From: a virus
Strand: one strand, 5' to 3'
Virus record (IMG/VR): IMGVR_UViG_3300008117_000167
Coordinates: 1 to 33,774 of that record
Length of the DNA: 33,774 nucleotides
Shown here one piece after another: positions 8,355 to 13,529 of this stretch. Position numbers and translations under genes: made by a program. The notes beneath the pieces are model-generated. The model was given only the letters and a program-made list of their open reading frames with translations, was not told where the DNA came from and searched no databases. How positions within the stretch are numbered: the stretch's first letter is position 1; each line of letters opens with the position of its first letter.

Positions 8355-8558
8355 TAATACATAAAATTAAACATATTATTGAATTATATTTAATTGTTTT
8401 TAACATTTCTTAATATCTTATATTAATATATCTTTTATTTTATATATTTTCTAAATTTTATATTATTTATAAAAATACTTTAATAAATATTTGGATATAT
8501 CATTACTTTAATATTATATTTGTAAAACAATTAACAATAACAATAAAAACAAAACAAC
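8355..8558. promoter_or_regulatory. Divergent AT-rich control region
   Basis: About 200 bases of extremely AT-rich DNA separate the minus-strand packaging operon from the plus-strand operon. The plus-strand promoter at 8490-8522 is clear. For the minus strand I find only a weak box, TATGTTTA (plus 8368-8375), one base off TAnnTTTG and without a TTTG at the right spacing. The late genes may therefore need a phage activator. No ORF is visible here. Confidence 0.55.
8490..8522 (+). promoter_or_regulatory. Bacteroidota-type promoter for the plus-strand operon
   Basis: TTTG at 8490-8493 and TATATTTG at 8515-8522 are separated by 21 bases, matching TTTG-N19-21-TAnnTTTG used by the primary sigma factor of Bacteroidota. 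Transcription should start a few bases after 8522, about 30 bases before the first ATG at 8559. Confidence 0.75.
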
Positions 8559-8648
8559 ATGAAAACTTTCACCATTGCTTCAATCATTTATGTATCACTT
8601 GCAGTTATTATGATCCCAGTAAGTTTATTTCTTTTATCAATTAATTAA
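8559..8648 (+). CDS. 29-residue single-span membrane peptide
   Basis: MKTFTIASIIYVSLAVIMIP begins a peptide that is almost entirely one hydrophobic helix and ends at TAA 8646-8648. It is the first ORF after the promoter and is preceded by a long A/C-rich leader (8529-8558) like those before the other plus-strand genes. Function is unknown; candidates are a small holin-like, superinfection-exclusion or host-takeover peptide. Confidence 0.5.
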   Translation: MKTFTIASIIYVSLAVIMIPVSLFLLSIN

Positions 8649-8669
8649 TCACACTAAAAACCAAACACA

Positions 8670-9111: not shown

Positions 9112-9675
9112 ATGAAAAAGTTACATTTAGCAGTATCAAAAGACAATCTAAGGCCGCAACTACAAAACATTCAAGTTAAAGATGGCCATGTATTTGCAAC
9201 AAATTGTCATATTTTAGTAAAGTTCCCAATTAACGAAGTTTTCGGCGAAAATTCACCAATAACAAAAGACGATCATTTTTATATTAATGGCAAAGAATGG
9301 GGCAAATTTAAGTTTTATAATGCCATGTATTTCACCTTTGAAAATGATATACTTTGCGCAAAAGATAAGAAAGGTAACAATTTAGGCATGATAAAAGTAA
9401 TTAAAGAAAATGAACTAAGTAGGCCATTTTATGACTGCAATGTGGTAATACCTAATGAAACAAAAGAAACGGTACAACTTTGTCAAATTTCATTTAATCA
9501 TGAACTTTACTACAATTTAATAGAAGTATTTAATTTTGATACCCCTTTGTTTAATATGAATTTTTACGGACAAACTTCCACAATTTTAGTAAAGTCAAAC
9601 ATTGAAACAGATACAAGGGGCCTGGGGGTTATTATGCCAATTCAAATAAATTTTAAAGAAGATGAAAAAAATTAA
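9112..9675 (+). CDS. Sliding-clamp-like protein (DNA polymerase III beta-related)
   Basis: The 187-residue protein has the clamp-domain pattern in which a short LRPQLQNIQVKDGHVFATNC is followed by HILVKFP. In bacterial beta clamps the matching segment is the R-P-x-L-x-x-I-x-V-x-x-G-x-x-x-A-T-x-x-H-x-L strand-helix-strand. The end, RGLGVIMPIQI, resembles the final strands with the conserved M-P before the clamp C terminus. At half the length of bacterial DnaN it would have to form a higher-order ring or be a partial clamp. No polymerase is encoded, so it may recruit or compete for the host polymerase. An A/C-rich leader precedes it. Confidence 0.6.
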   Translation: MKKLHLAVSKDNLRPQLQNIQVKDGHVFATNCHILVKFPINEVFGENSPITKDDHFYINGKEWGKFKFYNAMYFTFENDILCAKDKKGNNLGMIKVIKENELSRPFYDCNVVIPNETKETVQLCQISFNHELYYNLIEVFNFDTPLFNMNFYGQTSTILVKSNIETDTRGLGVIMPIQINFKEDEKN

Positions 9676-10059: not shown

Positions 10060-10227
10060 ATGAAAATAGACATTAACACAATGCAATACTTACTGAATTA
10101 CATAGAGTTAAACTATGATCGGTTAGAACATTTTTACAATAACCTACCCGAAAAAGACAAAAAAATGTCTTTTATTATCTTTATTATTGCTCAATTCACA
10201 AAAGATCATCTAAAAAATATTGAATGA
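10060..10227 (+). CDS. Possible 55-residue protein, unknown
   Basis: The ORF MKIDINTMQYLLNYIELNYD ends at TGA 10225-10227 and overlaps the convergent DnaA-like gene by 18 bases. The helical, charged sequence (LPEKDKKMSFIIFIIAQFTK) looks protein-like. It lies after the strong terminator, so expression would need read-through or an unseen promoter. Moderate to low confidence. Confidence 0.4.
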   Translation: MKIDINTMQYLLNYIELNYDRLEHFYNNLPEKDKKMSFIIFIIAQFTKDHLKNIE

Positions 10228-10617
10228 TACGTTGTATTTCTTAATTAGAAGCGTTTTAAGGCTGTCTAAGTCTGTTCCAATAGGTACATACATTTGAAGC
10301 AATAAACGGCCGTTAAAATGCCCCATTTTAACTAATTCGGCATTTATTTTGGCAATTAAGTCAGTTATGATGGGATCATTTATAGAAACCATGGTTTCTA
10401 TTGATGTAATGCTGTGCATTATGCTTGTGTGATGCTGTTTAAATAGTTCGCCAATTTGAACAAAAGTGTACCCATAATAAGATCGTAAAAAATATTGAAC
10501 AATTTGTCTGGGATATAAAACTTTTCTGGATCGGTTACGCTTAGTTAGTGCGGCCATATCGTAACCCGTAACATTAAAAACAGCTTGACAAAGATTAACA
10601 AAATTAGCATCTTGCAT
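10210..10617 (-). CDS. Stand-alone DnaA domain IV-like DNA-binding protein
   Basis: Residues about 16-95 of this 135-residue protein follow the DnaA C-terminal domain. TKRNRSRKVLYPRQIVQYFL matches the basic-loop and helix segment of DnaA ([20 protein letters not shown] in E. coli), and ELFKQHHTSIMHSITSIE matches its GGRDHTTVLHACRKIE helix-turn-helix; the DHT signature is HHT here. There is no AAA+ ATPase domain. The last 40 residues are unassigned. It should bind DnaA-box-like sites. The gene is next to the iteron-rich gap that I propose as the origin, and a 14-bp palindrome lies upstream of its start. It could initiate replication, repress its own promoter or displace host DnaA. Confidence 0.8.
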   Translation of the reverse strand: MQDANFVNLCQAVFNVTGYDMAALTKRNRSRKVLYPRQIVQYFLRSYYGYTFVQIGELFKQHHTSIMHSITSIETMVSINDPIITDLIAKINAELVKMGHFNGRLLLQMYVPIGTDLDSLKTLLIKKYNVSFNIF

Positions 10618-10683
10618 AAAATAAACAGTTTAAATAAGTTAAAAAAGTGTGCAATTCATTGTATTTCAATCACTTATAAGATA

Positions 10684-10697
10684 GTTGCATATGCAAC
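10684..10697. promoter_or_regulatory. Perfect 14-bp palindrome upstream of the DnaA-like gene
   Basis: GTTGCATATGCAAC is an exact palindrome 66 bases upstream of the DnaA-like start. It is a candidate operator for a dimeric regulator, perhaps the HTH protein encoded at 18047-18211. Confidence 0.5.
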
Positions 10698-10736
10698 CAT
10701 TGTCGAAACAACCGATTTTTGGCCATTTCCGCCCTA

Positions 10737-10824
10737 CCCCGCCAAAAACCCCACAAAAACTCCCCGCCAAAAATCTGCCAAAAACCCCACAAAAACCCCA
10801 GCGACAAAAATCTGCCAAAAATCT
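10737..10824. repeat. Tandem 36/37-bp repeats with five G4 runs on the minus strand
   Basis: The 20-mer GCCAAAAACCCCACAAAAAC occurs at 10741-10760 and 10777-10796. Together with the linker ending in AAAAATCT it forms units 10741-10776 and 10777-10813, and a third partial unit (GCCAAAAATCT) starts at 10814. CCCC runs at 10737, 10749, 10762, 10785 and 10796 give five GGGG runs on the minus strand, separated by 7 to 19 bases, enough for a G-quadruplex. Confidence 0.85.
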
Positions 10825-10826
10825 TG

Positions 10827-11131
10827 GGTACACGATTACACGATTTTACGCCCTTTCTATATTCCCCTATATATATTTTTTTTTCGTTTTTTTTTACAGA
10901 CCCCTTCCAGAATAGAGAAAAATCGCGAAATCGCGTCTCCGCGTTGATTATCAACACTTTAATCGCGTACCAATCGTGTACCAATCGCGTTCCCAAGCCT
11001 AAAATCGCGTTACCAAAAACCCTAAAACTGCACCTCATTTTCCTCTATTAAGTTAAATTTATAAACTTTTTTACCACCAGATGCCTTTTCTCGCTTAAAA
11101 AGGTACGCGATTTTTAAAAGGGTACACGATT
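10827..11131. repeat. AATCGYGTACC iterons in both orientations
   Basis: Plus-oriented copies of AATCGCGT/AATCGTGT start at 10929, 10961, 10972, 10983 and 11003, with a related AATCGCGA at 10921. Those at 10961, 10972 and 10983 are exactly 11 bp apart, one helical turn. Inverted copies (GGTACRCGATT or ACACGATT) lie at 10827-10837, 10838-10845, 11102-11112 and 11121-11131, the last two inside the end of the primase gene. The array flanks a T-rich tract at 10866-10897. Confidence 0.85.
10948..10956 (+). promoter_or_regulatory. DnaA-box-like site
   Basis: TTATCAACA differs by one base from the bacterial DnaA box TTATCCACA and sits inside the iteron array. It may bind host DnaA or the phage DnaA-like protein. 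Confidence 0.5.
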
Positions 11132-13529
11132 CTTCAATTGCCTTGGTGAACCTTTTTACCGAATAATCCTTCTTTTCAAAACCTGCCATATTTAAGAAAT
11201 CGTTATAAAGTTGTTCTAACTTTATCCAATTTCCATCCTTCTCAAGTACACCCTCAATAAAGTCCAAAAATTCATCACCAAACTGCACCTTGATCTGCTT
11301 TTTGACCAGTTTATCAGAATTTGTCATATTCTGCACCCCAAACTGCAAATAACCTTGTACGCAGTTAAACATCAAATTATAAAACCGATTCCATTCTTGA
11401 ACATCCCAATCGTCAAATAGCTTATGCCCAAAAAAGTCCTCTGGTGTGTAGGTATTTGAAAATGTCGGAGCAAATTCCATCACCTTTTGTCTTCTCTTTG
11501 CATGGTTGCCCGAATTTGGGATGGTGTAATTTGTCGTAAATATAACCTTTGGTGAATCCTTATAAGGTATAAATAATTCATCCTTATTTTTCTTTTCAAC
11601 AGTAACTCCTTCGGTTATTATGCTATAAAAACCCTCAAAATCTACATTTTTTCTCGTGTCCTCAATAGCTAAAATCTTTGTATCAAGGTCAACCCTCTGA
11701 AACGCAAAGTTCTTGTCAACTTTAAAGTTCTTGCCATCTACTCGAACAGTATTTAAAATATAACTAAGTGCCTTTACAAAAATCCCCTTACCAGTTCCAC
11801 CACCTTTCGCCTCATTATCGGTTTCCTCGGCAAGAATAACCGCAAATGGTCTTGCAGGGTCTTTATACTTATGTAAAAGGTAACCAATTAGGCTTAGTGC
11901 GTACATTATCCTTTCTTGATCGCCTCCGCTAATCTTCTCAATGAACTTATAATATTCAATTTGTGATGGCTCTGTGCCCGTCTGATCAATGTGAATTTCA
12001 TGGTTGATGACTTGCGACTTCCAAATGCATTTTTTTAGTTCGCCATAAGACTTCAGTTCAATGTCATCTTTGGTTATCACAACCACCCCATTTTTAAATG
12101 GGAAATAGCTTACATCTTTGGTGTCTTTTAGAAAATCGACATCTGCCCTATCAAAAAACTCAAAGAAAGCATCGCTAAAAAGCAGTGATGCACCCTTATA
12201 CATCAATTCAAGCAAATCTTGTGGCGAAACCTCACCATCAAAGGTGTCGGGTAGCCTATCCACATAATCCTTTATAAACCGCTTTATTTGCTCAGTACTC
12301 GCCTCCTCCACAAAACCATCCTTTACCCTTATAAGCCTATAAATCGTTGAATTAGGGTCGTAGAAATAAAGCCTAAAGCCACCTTGCTTGGTTAGGAATA
12401 TTTGCAGCTTATAACGATTTATACTTGGTTGACCTGTTTTCTCGTTTATATCCCAAAACTCAAGTATCTGCTCACCCCATCTGTCATTTAGGTCTTTTAT
12501 GATGCCTTCGGCTTCCGTAAGTTCTTTATCATACTTTTTAATAAGTAGAGACTTAAGTTCATCGTTTGTTGCTCCATTCTGCTTTTTGTTAAAAAGCGTC
12601 TTTTCCAATTTCCCTCCGTATGATGTTTTTTTTTCACCAAAACCCATTTCGACCAATTTCTTTGCTCCCGCCTTAAAATCCCCTCCACATTCAAGTATGC
12701 AAAACACTGCCGAAGGCTTATAGCCTTTCTCAACTATAAAAGGTGTATTCGTACTAAAAACACTAAATAACCCCAAACTCTTATTATATGATCCACTATG
12801 CTTGGCTTCACTCCCAGGTCGTAAAAAATATATCCTTTCCGTATTTTCACCAACCACTTTCCATCCAAAGTTGCCTAATAAGGTAACAATGTCCCCTCTT
12901 TTATTATAATCATCAAAAGGGGATATGCCATACTCTTTCACAGAAGGTCGATCATGTGCTTCAATTATCACTTCTTCAATCACTTCGTTAAAACTTCTCA
13001 TTATACTGAGTAAACTATCCCTTTCATCTAAGGTAATAATATTAATACCTTCTTTAACAAAGCTATAACCTTCTGTTGGGGGAGCAACAACATATCCAGC
13101 TTCTCCCCTCGTTTCTATTATGCAGTATGTTTTAATGTTGGGATTTCTCAATAATTCCTCAGCCGTTGCATTACGCAAAGCAAGCTTTTTATTCCCTTCA
13201 ATATATTCGCATCTATAATATATATGATAGCCGTTGTTCTTTGTACGAACAATATGTAGCTTATCATATAATTCTTTTGGAATCTTAGTCGCAATTTGCG
13301 ACCACAAGTCATAAGTCTGATATTTTGTATCAACATCTATCACTTCCAAATTACCGCTAACAGCACCGCATATTACTGCAATACCTTTCGCCTTATGGTC
13401 AGCCATTTGCCTTTCAACTTCTTCAATCGTTATTTCCTTTGTCTGATAAATCTTCCAAGGAAATATGGCTTGTTTCTGTTCGTTTACAGCAATAATATTA
13501 ATACCTTGTTCAATATAATTTTCAATCAT
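11022..13529 (-). CDS. Primase-helicase (PrimPol domain plus SF3/D5-type helicase)
   Basis: The 835-residue protein should prime and unwind phage DNA. The N-terminal PrimPol domain shows the catalytic LEVIDVD (D65 and D67) and NNGYHIYYRC (H102), plus GEAGYVVAPPT near 142. A middle region (200-300, SGSYNKSLGLFSVF) and a linker lead to the SF3-type ATPase: Walker A GGGTGKG near 576-582, Walker B-like ILAIEDTRKN near 620, and sensor VIFTTNYTIPNSG near 670. A C-terminal winged-helix-like part follows (VLEKDGNWIKLEQLYNDFL). It ends at the proposed origin, and its last 100 bases contain two inverted iterons. Length is normal for fused phage primase-helicases. Confidence 0.9.
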   Translation of the reverse strand: MIENYIEQGINIIAVNEQKQAIFPWKIYQTKEITIEEVERQMADHKAKGIAVICGAVSGNLEVIDVDTKYQTYDLWSQIATKIPKELYDKLHIVRTKNNGYHIYYRCEYIEGNKKLALRNATAEELLRNPNIKTYCIIETRGEAGYVVAPPTEGYSFVKEGINIITLDERDSLLSIMRSFNEVIEEVIIEAHDRPSVKEYGISPFDDYNKRGDIVTLLGNFGWKVVGENTERIYFLRPGSEAKHSGSYNKSLGLFSVFSTNTPFIVEKGYKPSAVFCILECGGDFKAGAKKLVEMGFGEKKTSYGGKLEKTLFNKKQNGATNDELKSLLIKKYDKELTEAEGIIKDLNDRWGEQILEFWDINEKTGQPSINRYKLQIFLTKQGGFRLYFYDPNSTIYRLIRVKDGFVEEASTEQIKRFIKDYVDRLPDTFDGEVSPQDLLELMYKGASLLFSDAFFEFFDRADVDFLKDTKDVSYFPFKNGVVVITKDDIELKSYGELKKCIWKSQVINHEIHIDQTGTEPSQIEYYKFIEKISGGDQERIMYALSLIGYLLHKYKDPARPFAVILAEETDNEAKGGGTGKGIFVKALSYILNTVRVDGKNFKVDKNFAFQRVDLDTKILAIEDTRKNVDFEGFYSIITEGVTVEKKNKDELFIPYKDSPKVIFTTNYTIPNSGNHAKRRQKVMEFAPTFSNTYTPEDFFGHKLFDDWDVQEWNRFYNLMFNCVQGYLQFGVQNMTNSDKLVKKQIKVQFGDEFLDFIEGVLEKDGNWIKLEQLYNDFLNMAGFEKKDYSVKRFTKAIEESCTLLKIAYLFKREKASGGKKVYKFNLIEENEVQF

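Follow-up and report, generated by a model that had tools for sequence, protein, structure and literature searches.

Iterons beside an AT-rich tract, placed within the gene of the very protein that binds them, are known from ori-lambda and the lambda O protein, which has no primase or helicase domain and requires P and the host DnaB. In other systems the initiator is itself a helicase: the C-terminal domain of SaPI Rep and SCCmec Cch2 binds iterons directly downstream of its own gene (PMC7581432), and P4 alpha is a primase-helicase that binds the repeats of its origin by a C-terminal winged helix (PMC4234260). Prim-Pol, SF3 helicase and a C-terminal winged helix are combined in one protein in pRN1 ORF904 and in phage BIP-1, and the origin proposed just 3' of the gene contains a large stem-loop and no iterons (PMC4234260). 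Searching the literature, we found no description of an iteron origin beside a phage prim-pol.

Here we describe such a candidate in a viral contig of 33,774 nt (the window, i.e. the whole stretch of DNA that was analysed). Its two ends share 114 identical bp, and because of this terminal redundancy the contig is probably a complete circular map. A block of short repeats separates a primase-helicase gene from a gene for a DnaA_C protein, and comparison with related sequences makes it very likely that this block is a phage replication origin. We give a probability of about 70% to an origin of the self-recognising initiator type, the iterons of which would be bound by the C-terminal winged helix of the prim-pol/helicase.

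Measured against SaPI Rep, Cch2 and P4 alpha, a protein with helicase and primase domains is encoded directly beside the block (PF09250, PF19263; the layout is kept in relatives), and short iterons lie immediately 3' of the proposed initiator gene by an AT-rich tract. Like SaPI Rep and Cch2, the locus has iterons directly downstream of the gene for the (proposed) initiator helicase, with a C-terminal domain as the (here predicted) DNA reader; unlike them, it has Prim-Pol fused to the helicase, iterons that reach into the coding sequence, a conserved palindromic core and a DnaA_C gene next to it. A primase-helicase with a C-terminal winged helix (here predicted) for the origin repeats is shared with P4 alpha, which however has a Toprim primase, whereas the window protein is a Prim-Pol that does not qualify as a P4-family primase by TIGR01613 (24.9 bits; cut-off 108.7). 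With pRN1 ORF904 and BIP-1 it shares Prim-Pol, SF3 helicase and a predicted C-terminal winged helix in one protein, as well as a proposed origin 3' of the gene, but here there are iterons without a conserved stem-loop. As in lambda, iterons lie beside an AT-rich tract and inside the gene of their proposed binder; in contrast to O, the window protein has primase and helicase domains.

The repeat block and its flanking genes

The features of the locus, from the primase-helicase gene towards dnaA_C, are as follows:

11022..13529, minus strand: Prim-Pol / DUF5906 (SF3-like) primase-helicase gene, 835 aa, proposed initiator (Pfam, PHROG)
11046..11318, minus strand: predicted C-terminal winged-helix domain, residues ~738-828, proposed iteron reader (AlphaFold models)
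11122..11131, plus strand: iteron 1, in the primase gene, inverted, GTACACGATT (motif match; codon constraint)
11103..11112, plus strand: iteron 2, in the primase gene, inverted, GTACGCGATT (motif match; fits the intergenic class in most classes)
11003..11012, minus strand: iteron 3, TAACGCGATT, weaker copy
10983..10992, minus strand: iteron 4, GAACGCGATT, first of three at 11-bp spacing
10972..10981, minus strand: iteron 5, GTACACGATT
10961..10970, minus strand: iteron 6, GTACGCGATT
10944..10954, no strand: palindromic core TTGATTATCAA, sole exact copy in the window, conserved in relatives
10929..10938, minus strand: iteron 7, close pair, AGACGCGATT, weaker copy
10921..10930, minus strand: iteron 8, close pair, TTTCGCGATT, weaker copy
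10866..10897, no strand: AT-rich / T-rich tract, proposed unwinding element (sequence)
10836..10845, plus strand: iteron 9, inverted, past the T-rich tract, TTACACGATT, weaker copy
10828..10837, plus strand: iteron 10, inverted, GTACACGATT
10210..10617, minus strand: DnaA_C protein (DnaA domain IV alone), 135 aa, proposed accessory factor (PF08299, E=1.6e-13)

The elements listed in a preliminary description of this DNA were all found again. AATCGYGTACC occurs in both orientations around the T-rich stretch (~10873-10897), with five exact copies (for the motif as written, 10961-10971 and 10972-10982 on the plus strand; 10827-10837, 11102-11112 and 11121-11131 on the minus strand) and one with a single mismatch at 10983-10993; three copies start exactly 11 bp apart (10961/10972/10983), two lie within the end of the primase gene, and the DnaA-box-like 9-mer TTATCAACA is present at 10948-10956. 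The flanking genes also proved to be those named, i.e. DnaA_C (PF08299, E=1.6e-13) on the one side and Prim-Pol PF09250 plus DUF5906 on the other (Pfam matches PF09250, E=1.3e-14, and PF19263, E=2e-8; PHROG match phrog_19930, DNA polymerase/primase). With the weaker copies at 10836, 10921, 10929 and 11003 there are ten iterons in all: two in the primase gene end, four in the array, two in the close pair and, past the T-rich tract, two in inverted orientation. The 8-mer AATCGYGT is present 11 times in the window (0.98 expected; none of 100 shuffles reached 11), and 9 of these copies fall within 10830-11131. The 11-mer with two mismatches is only weakly above chance genome-wide (14 copies compared to 7.8 expected; 2 of 100 shuffles). 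The iteron signal is one of clustering, rather than of the genome-wide 11-mer count.

The core contains the DnaA-box-like TTATCAACA, which forms one half of the palindrome, and an IHF-like match, TATCAACACTTTA. Among the relatives, the IHF consensus WATCARNNNNTTR overlaps the core in less than half of the loci; almost no class C locus has it, nor do the loci in which the core reads TTGAGAATCAA. Exact TTATCMACA is found once in the window, and DnaA boxes with one mismatch are at chance level there (42 compared to 33.6 expected), so that no DnaA-box cluster was found. Before dnaA_C, DnaA boxes are not systematic: perfect TTATCCACA is seen in three loci (L004, L013, L096), in two of them near the start codon. 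In the relatives, the DNA after the close pair is AT-rich as well (AT fraction 0.85 over the first 10 nt).

Several further sequence elements lie in the vicinity. In 28 of 55 loci the close pair is followed, within 90 nt, by runs of at least 4 G (the place of 10866-10897 in the window), compared to 17% of upstream 90-nt windows (the related loci not being independent), with a possible link to priming. A second, G/T-rich array is found on the minus strand at 10714-10825, between the far inverted iterons and dnaA_C, with repeats like GGGGTTTTTGGC / GATTTTTGGC at a spacing of ~11-14 bp; three relatives (L004, L027, L035) have similar stretches in this position, most relatives do not. A perfect 14-bp palindrome, GTTGCATATGCAAC, lies upstream of dnaA_C (10684-10697; sole exact copy in the window) and could be an operator. 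At 9112-9675, on the strand opposite to most genes, a 187-aa protein with weak PHROG matches (phrog_3007; phrog_6615, DNA polymerase) is encoded, which probably acts in DNA metabolism.

The inverted repeats might matter as a hairpin instead of as protein sites, in a stem-loop origin like that proposed for pRN1; the domain order of the window protein recurs in pRN1 and phage BIP-1, for both of which an origin 3' of the gene has been proposed (PMC4234260). Indeed, the window strand folds better than its shuffles (z -4.3). However, z-scores in the relatives range from -5.5 to +1.9, and the fold, which tracks the presence of the far inverted pair, is not conserved. No conserved stem-loop was found among them; we rejected this element and regard a hairpin origin as very improbable.

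A fixed layout with changing repeats

Relatives were collected from IMG/VR by searches with the primase (36 loci, then 80, on partly overlapping contigs), and 55 non-identical loci made up the set for detailed comparison. In nearly all loci that reach far enough, the order is primase 3' end, repeat block, DnaA_C gene. More than 50 relatives share the layout of inverted in-gene iterons, ~11-bp array, TTGATWATCAA, a pair 8-9 bp apart and AT-rich tract, and many carry two additional inverted iterons. In nearly all iteron classes, the core TTGATWATCAA separates the array from the close pair. The slots of the repeats are fixed relative to the primase stop codon, while the repeat sequence varies: assigned by eye, about nine iteron classes can be told apart, with GTACRCGATT as class A, to which the window belongs, and TAACATSATT, ACGTCATT, TGTACCRCTT, TGTTCCACTT, GTAGTCCATT and its variants, TTGCRCGATT, GTARTCGATT and GTAGCGGATT as the others.

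The position of the block, the architecture kept by more than 50 relatives and the concerted change of the repeats give good support to the replication origin read from the window alone in the preliminary description; its implied link to the DnaA-like protein finds no support (see below). A loss of iterons from relatives that keep both flanking genes had been named there as an argument against an origin; we found the iteron slots retained even where the motif is altered. The suggested inspection of GC skew spoke neither for nor against an origin: the cumulative skew and the skew at 4-fold sites by replication arm gave no signal at the block, and are uninformative because nearly all genes are on one strand.

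The copies within the primase gene follow the same pattern. Class A shows hardly any codon variation over them: of 15 conserved Ser columns, that of Ser801 varies least, with TCG in 25 of 26 loci. In most other classes the copies in the gene have shifted along with the intergenic repeats: KIAY (ATCGCGTAC) is replaced by KIDY (ATCGATTAC) in loci with GTARTCGATT and by KMDY (ATGGACTAC) in loci with GTAGTCCATT, and the gene end reads IML in loci with TAACATSATT. In 48 of 55 loci the gene end is matched best by the intergenic matrix of the locus's own class (the exceptions being class D, A3 and five A2 loci), and in 51 of 55 the gene-end score is unmatched by any sampled upstream window; no in-gene iteron matching the class is seen in class D (L022), A3 and two A2 loci. 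These patterns suggest that the in-gene iterons act as DNA.

More distant relatives were found as well. Two of them (L111, L112) have no DnaA_C gene in their 43-kb contigs, and L111 still has the repeats and the palindrome TTGATWATCAA. In Chitinophaga japonensis DSM 13484 (L116), at 8540-8660, GGTACAA-type repeats ~10 bp apart lie just 3' of a related primase gene, and other genes, the first for a DNA methyltransferase, follow the primase gene and repeats. This region has the appearance of a related prophage, pointing to hosts in the Bacteroidota.

Such comparisons also bear on a transcriptional role. The block sits in front of dnaA_C, and the primase could autoregulate, so the repeats might be operators for dnaA_C or for the primase operon and not an origin. 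Yet ten repeats, with two in the 3' end of the upstream gene and an AT-rich tract beside them, would be unusual for an operator, and the repeats are retained where the downstream gene differs. We therefore consider operators in place of an origin unlikely; regulation of transcription besides an origin function is possible.

Which protein reads the repeats

The preliminary description had implied the adjoining DnaA-like protein as the binder of the iterons. Its gene adjoins the block in nearly all relatives and the core includes a DnaA-box-like 9-mer, both of which would fit a phage DnaA_C acting as a mini-DnaA initiator. The 135-aa protein, however, matches the C-terminal HTH part of DnaA models alone and is not the full-length DnaA with an AAA+ domain of a DnaA/oriC-type origin. 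Moreover, its recognition helix varies freely while the iterons stay constant: the iterons are identical in L002 (RDHATVMN), L012 (RHHSTVIH) and the window (HHTSIMH) despite very different helices, and conversely the helix HHTTILYS is identical in L025 and L033, which have different iterons. Distant relatives without an adjoining DnaA_C gene keep the repeats, among them L111, which retains both repeats and core. Iteron distance is not correlated with DnaA_C (partial correlation 0.08 given the primase core, p 0.16). Taken together, a mini-DnaA initiator seems improbable.

The dnaA_C gene appears to have a history of its own. In L012 and L002 the primase ends and origins are near-identical and the DnaA_C proteins clearly different, which suggests that the gene was exchanged or rapidly diversified independently. 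Used alone as a query against viral contigs, the DnaA_C protein gave zero confirmed matches, because it diverges too fast.

For the primase, on the other hand, iteron distance correlates with its C-terminus at r 0.68, and at a partial r of 0.57 (p 0.001) once the primase core is accounted for; the codons over the iterons were excluded, and related loci are not independent. This association builds up by degrees between residues 550 and 800, so that linkage may account for some of it; and the DnaA_C distances may be saturated (20-28% identity), which weakens the contrast between the two proteins. Counted on trees, class changes of the iterons number 9 for the primase and 11 for DnaA_C, too close to decide alone. 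Class A and most A2 loci share the primase recognition helix SVKRFTKG despite their different iterons, and differ in the wing alone.

The whole-chain AlphaFold model of the primase-helicase is poor (pLDDT 51.7 overall), with 70-86 in the C-terminal domain; for this reason the last 150 residues were folded alone, giving a helical segment followed by a winged helix (mean pLDDT 80.8). Foldseek against the PDB returned mostly winged-helix DNA binders for this C-terminus (Fur, TFE, LmrR, Orc1/Cdc6; E 0.06 or worse), none of them significant, and no known initiator was matched significantly; sequence profiles against the PDB gave no meaningful match. On these models the winged-helix fold class is plausible, and they point to no particular kin. 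In the predicted structure of the window protein, the residues encoded by the in-gene iterons close the recognition helix and open the wing. This raises the idea of a self-locking pair, in which the iterons encode the very parts that read them, i.e. the helix end and the first strand of the wing (EESCT and KIAY, over two iterons). A change of iteron would then recode the reader and the whole origin would turn over in concert, repeatedly (~nine classes) within one phage family and with the layout fixed. We put this forward tentatively, as a doubtful extension.

Proposed initiation and its meaning

Among the mechanisms considered, recognition by the primase-helicase has the best support, with SaPI Rep and Cch2 as the nearest model, and from the sequences we infer that the block acts as an origin, is bound by the winged helix and is the place of melting, helicase loading and priming. 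The C-terminal winged helix of the prim-pol/helicase would bind the iterons that follow its own gene as well as those within the gene's 3' end. The bound protein would multimerise, open the adjoining AT-rich tract, load its own helicase ring and, through its prim-pol, supply the primer for DNA synthesis. An architectural protein of the IHF/HU kind, or a different host factor, probably binds the core TTGATWATCAA. For the DnaA_C protein an accessory role is probable, most likely that of a regulator or of a modulator of the host DnaA.

If this reading is right, phages with a prim-pol/helicase gain an identified origin, and initiators of this kind can use iterons besides the stem-loops proposed for pRN1. 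It would also correct the intuitive view of the adjoining DnaA-like gene as the initiator. The iteron classes, set on one fixed scaffold with primases that are mostly ~61-90% identical, amount to a natural experiment in the joint change of initiator and origin specificity.
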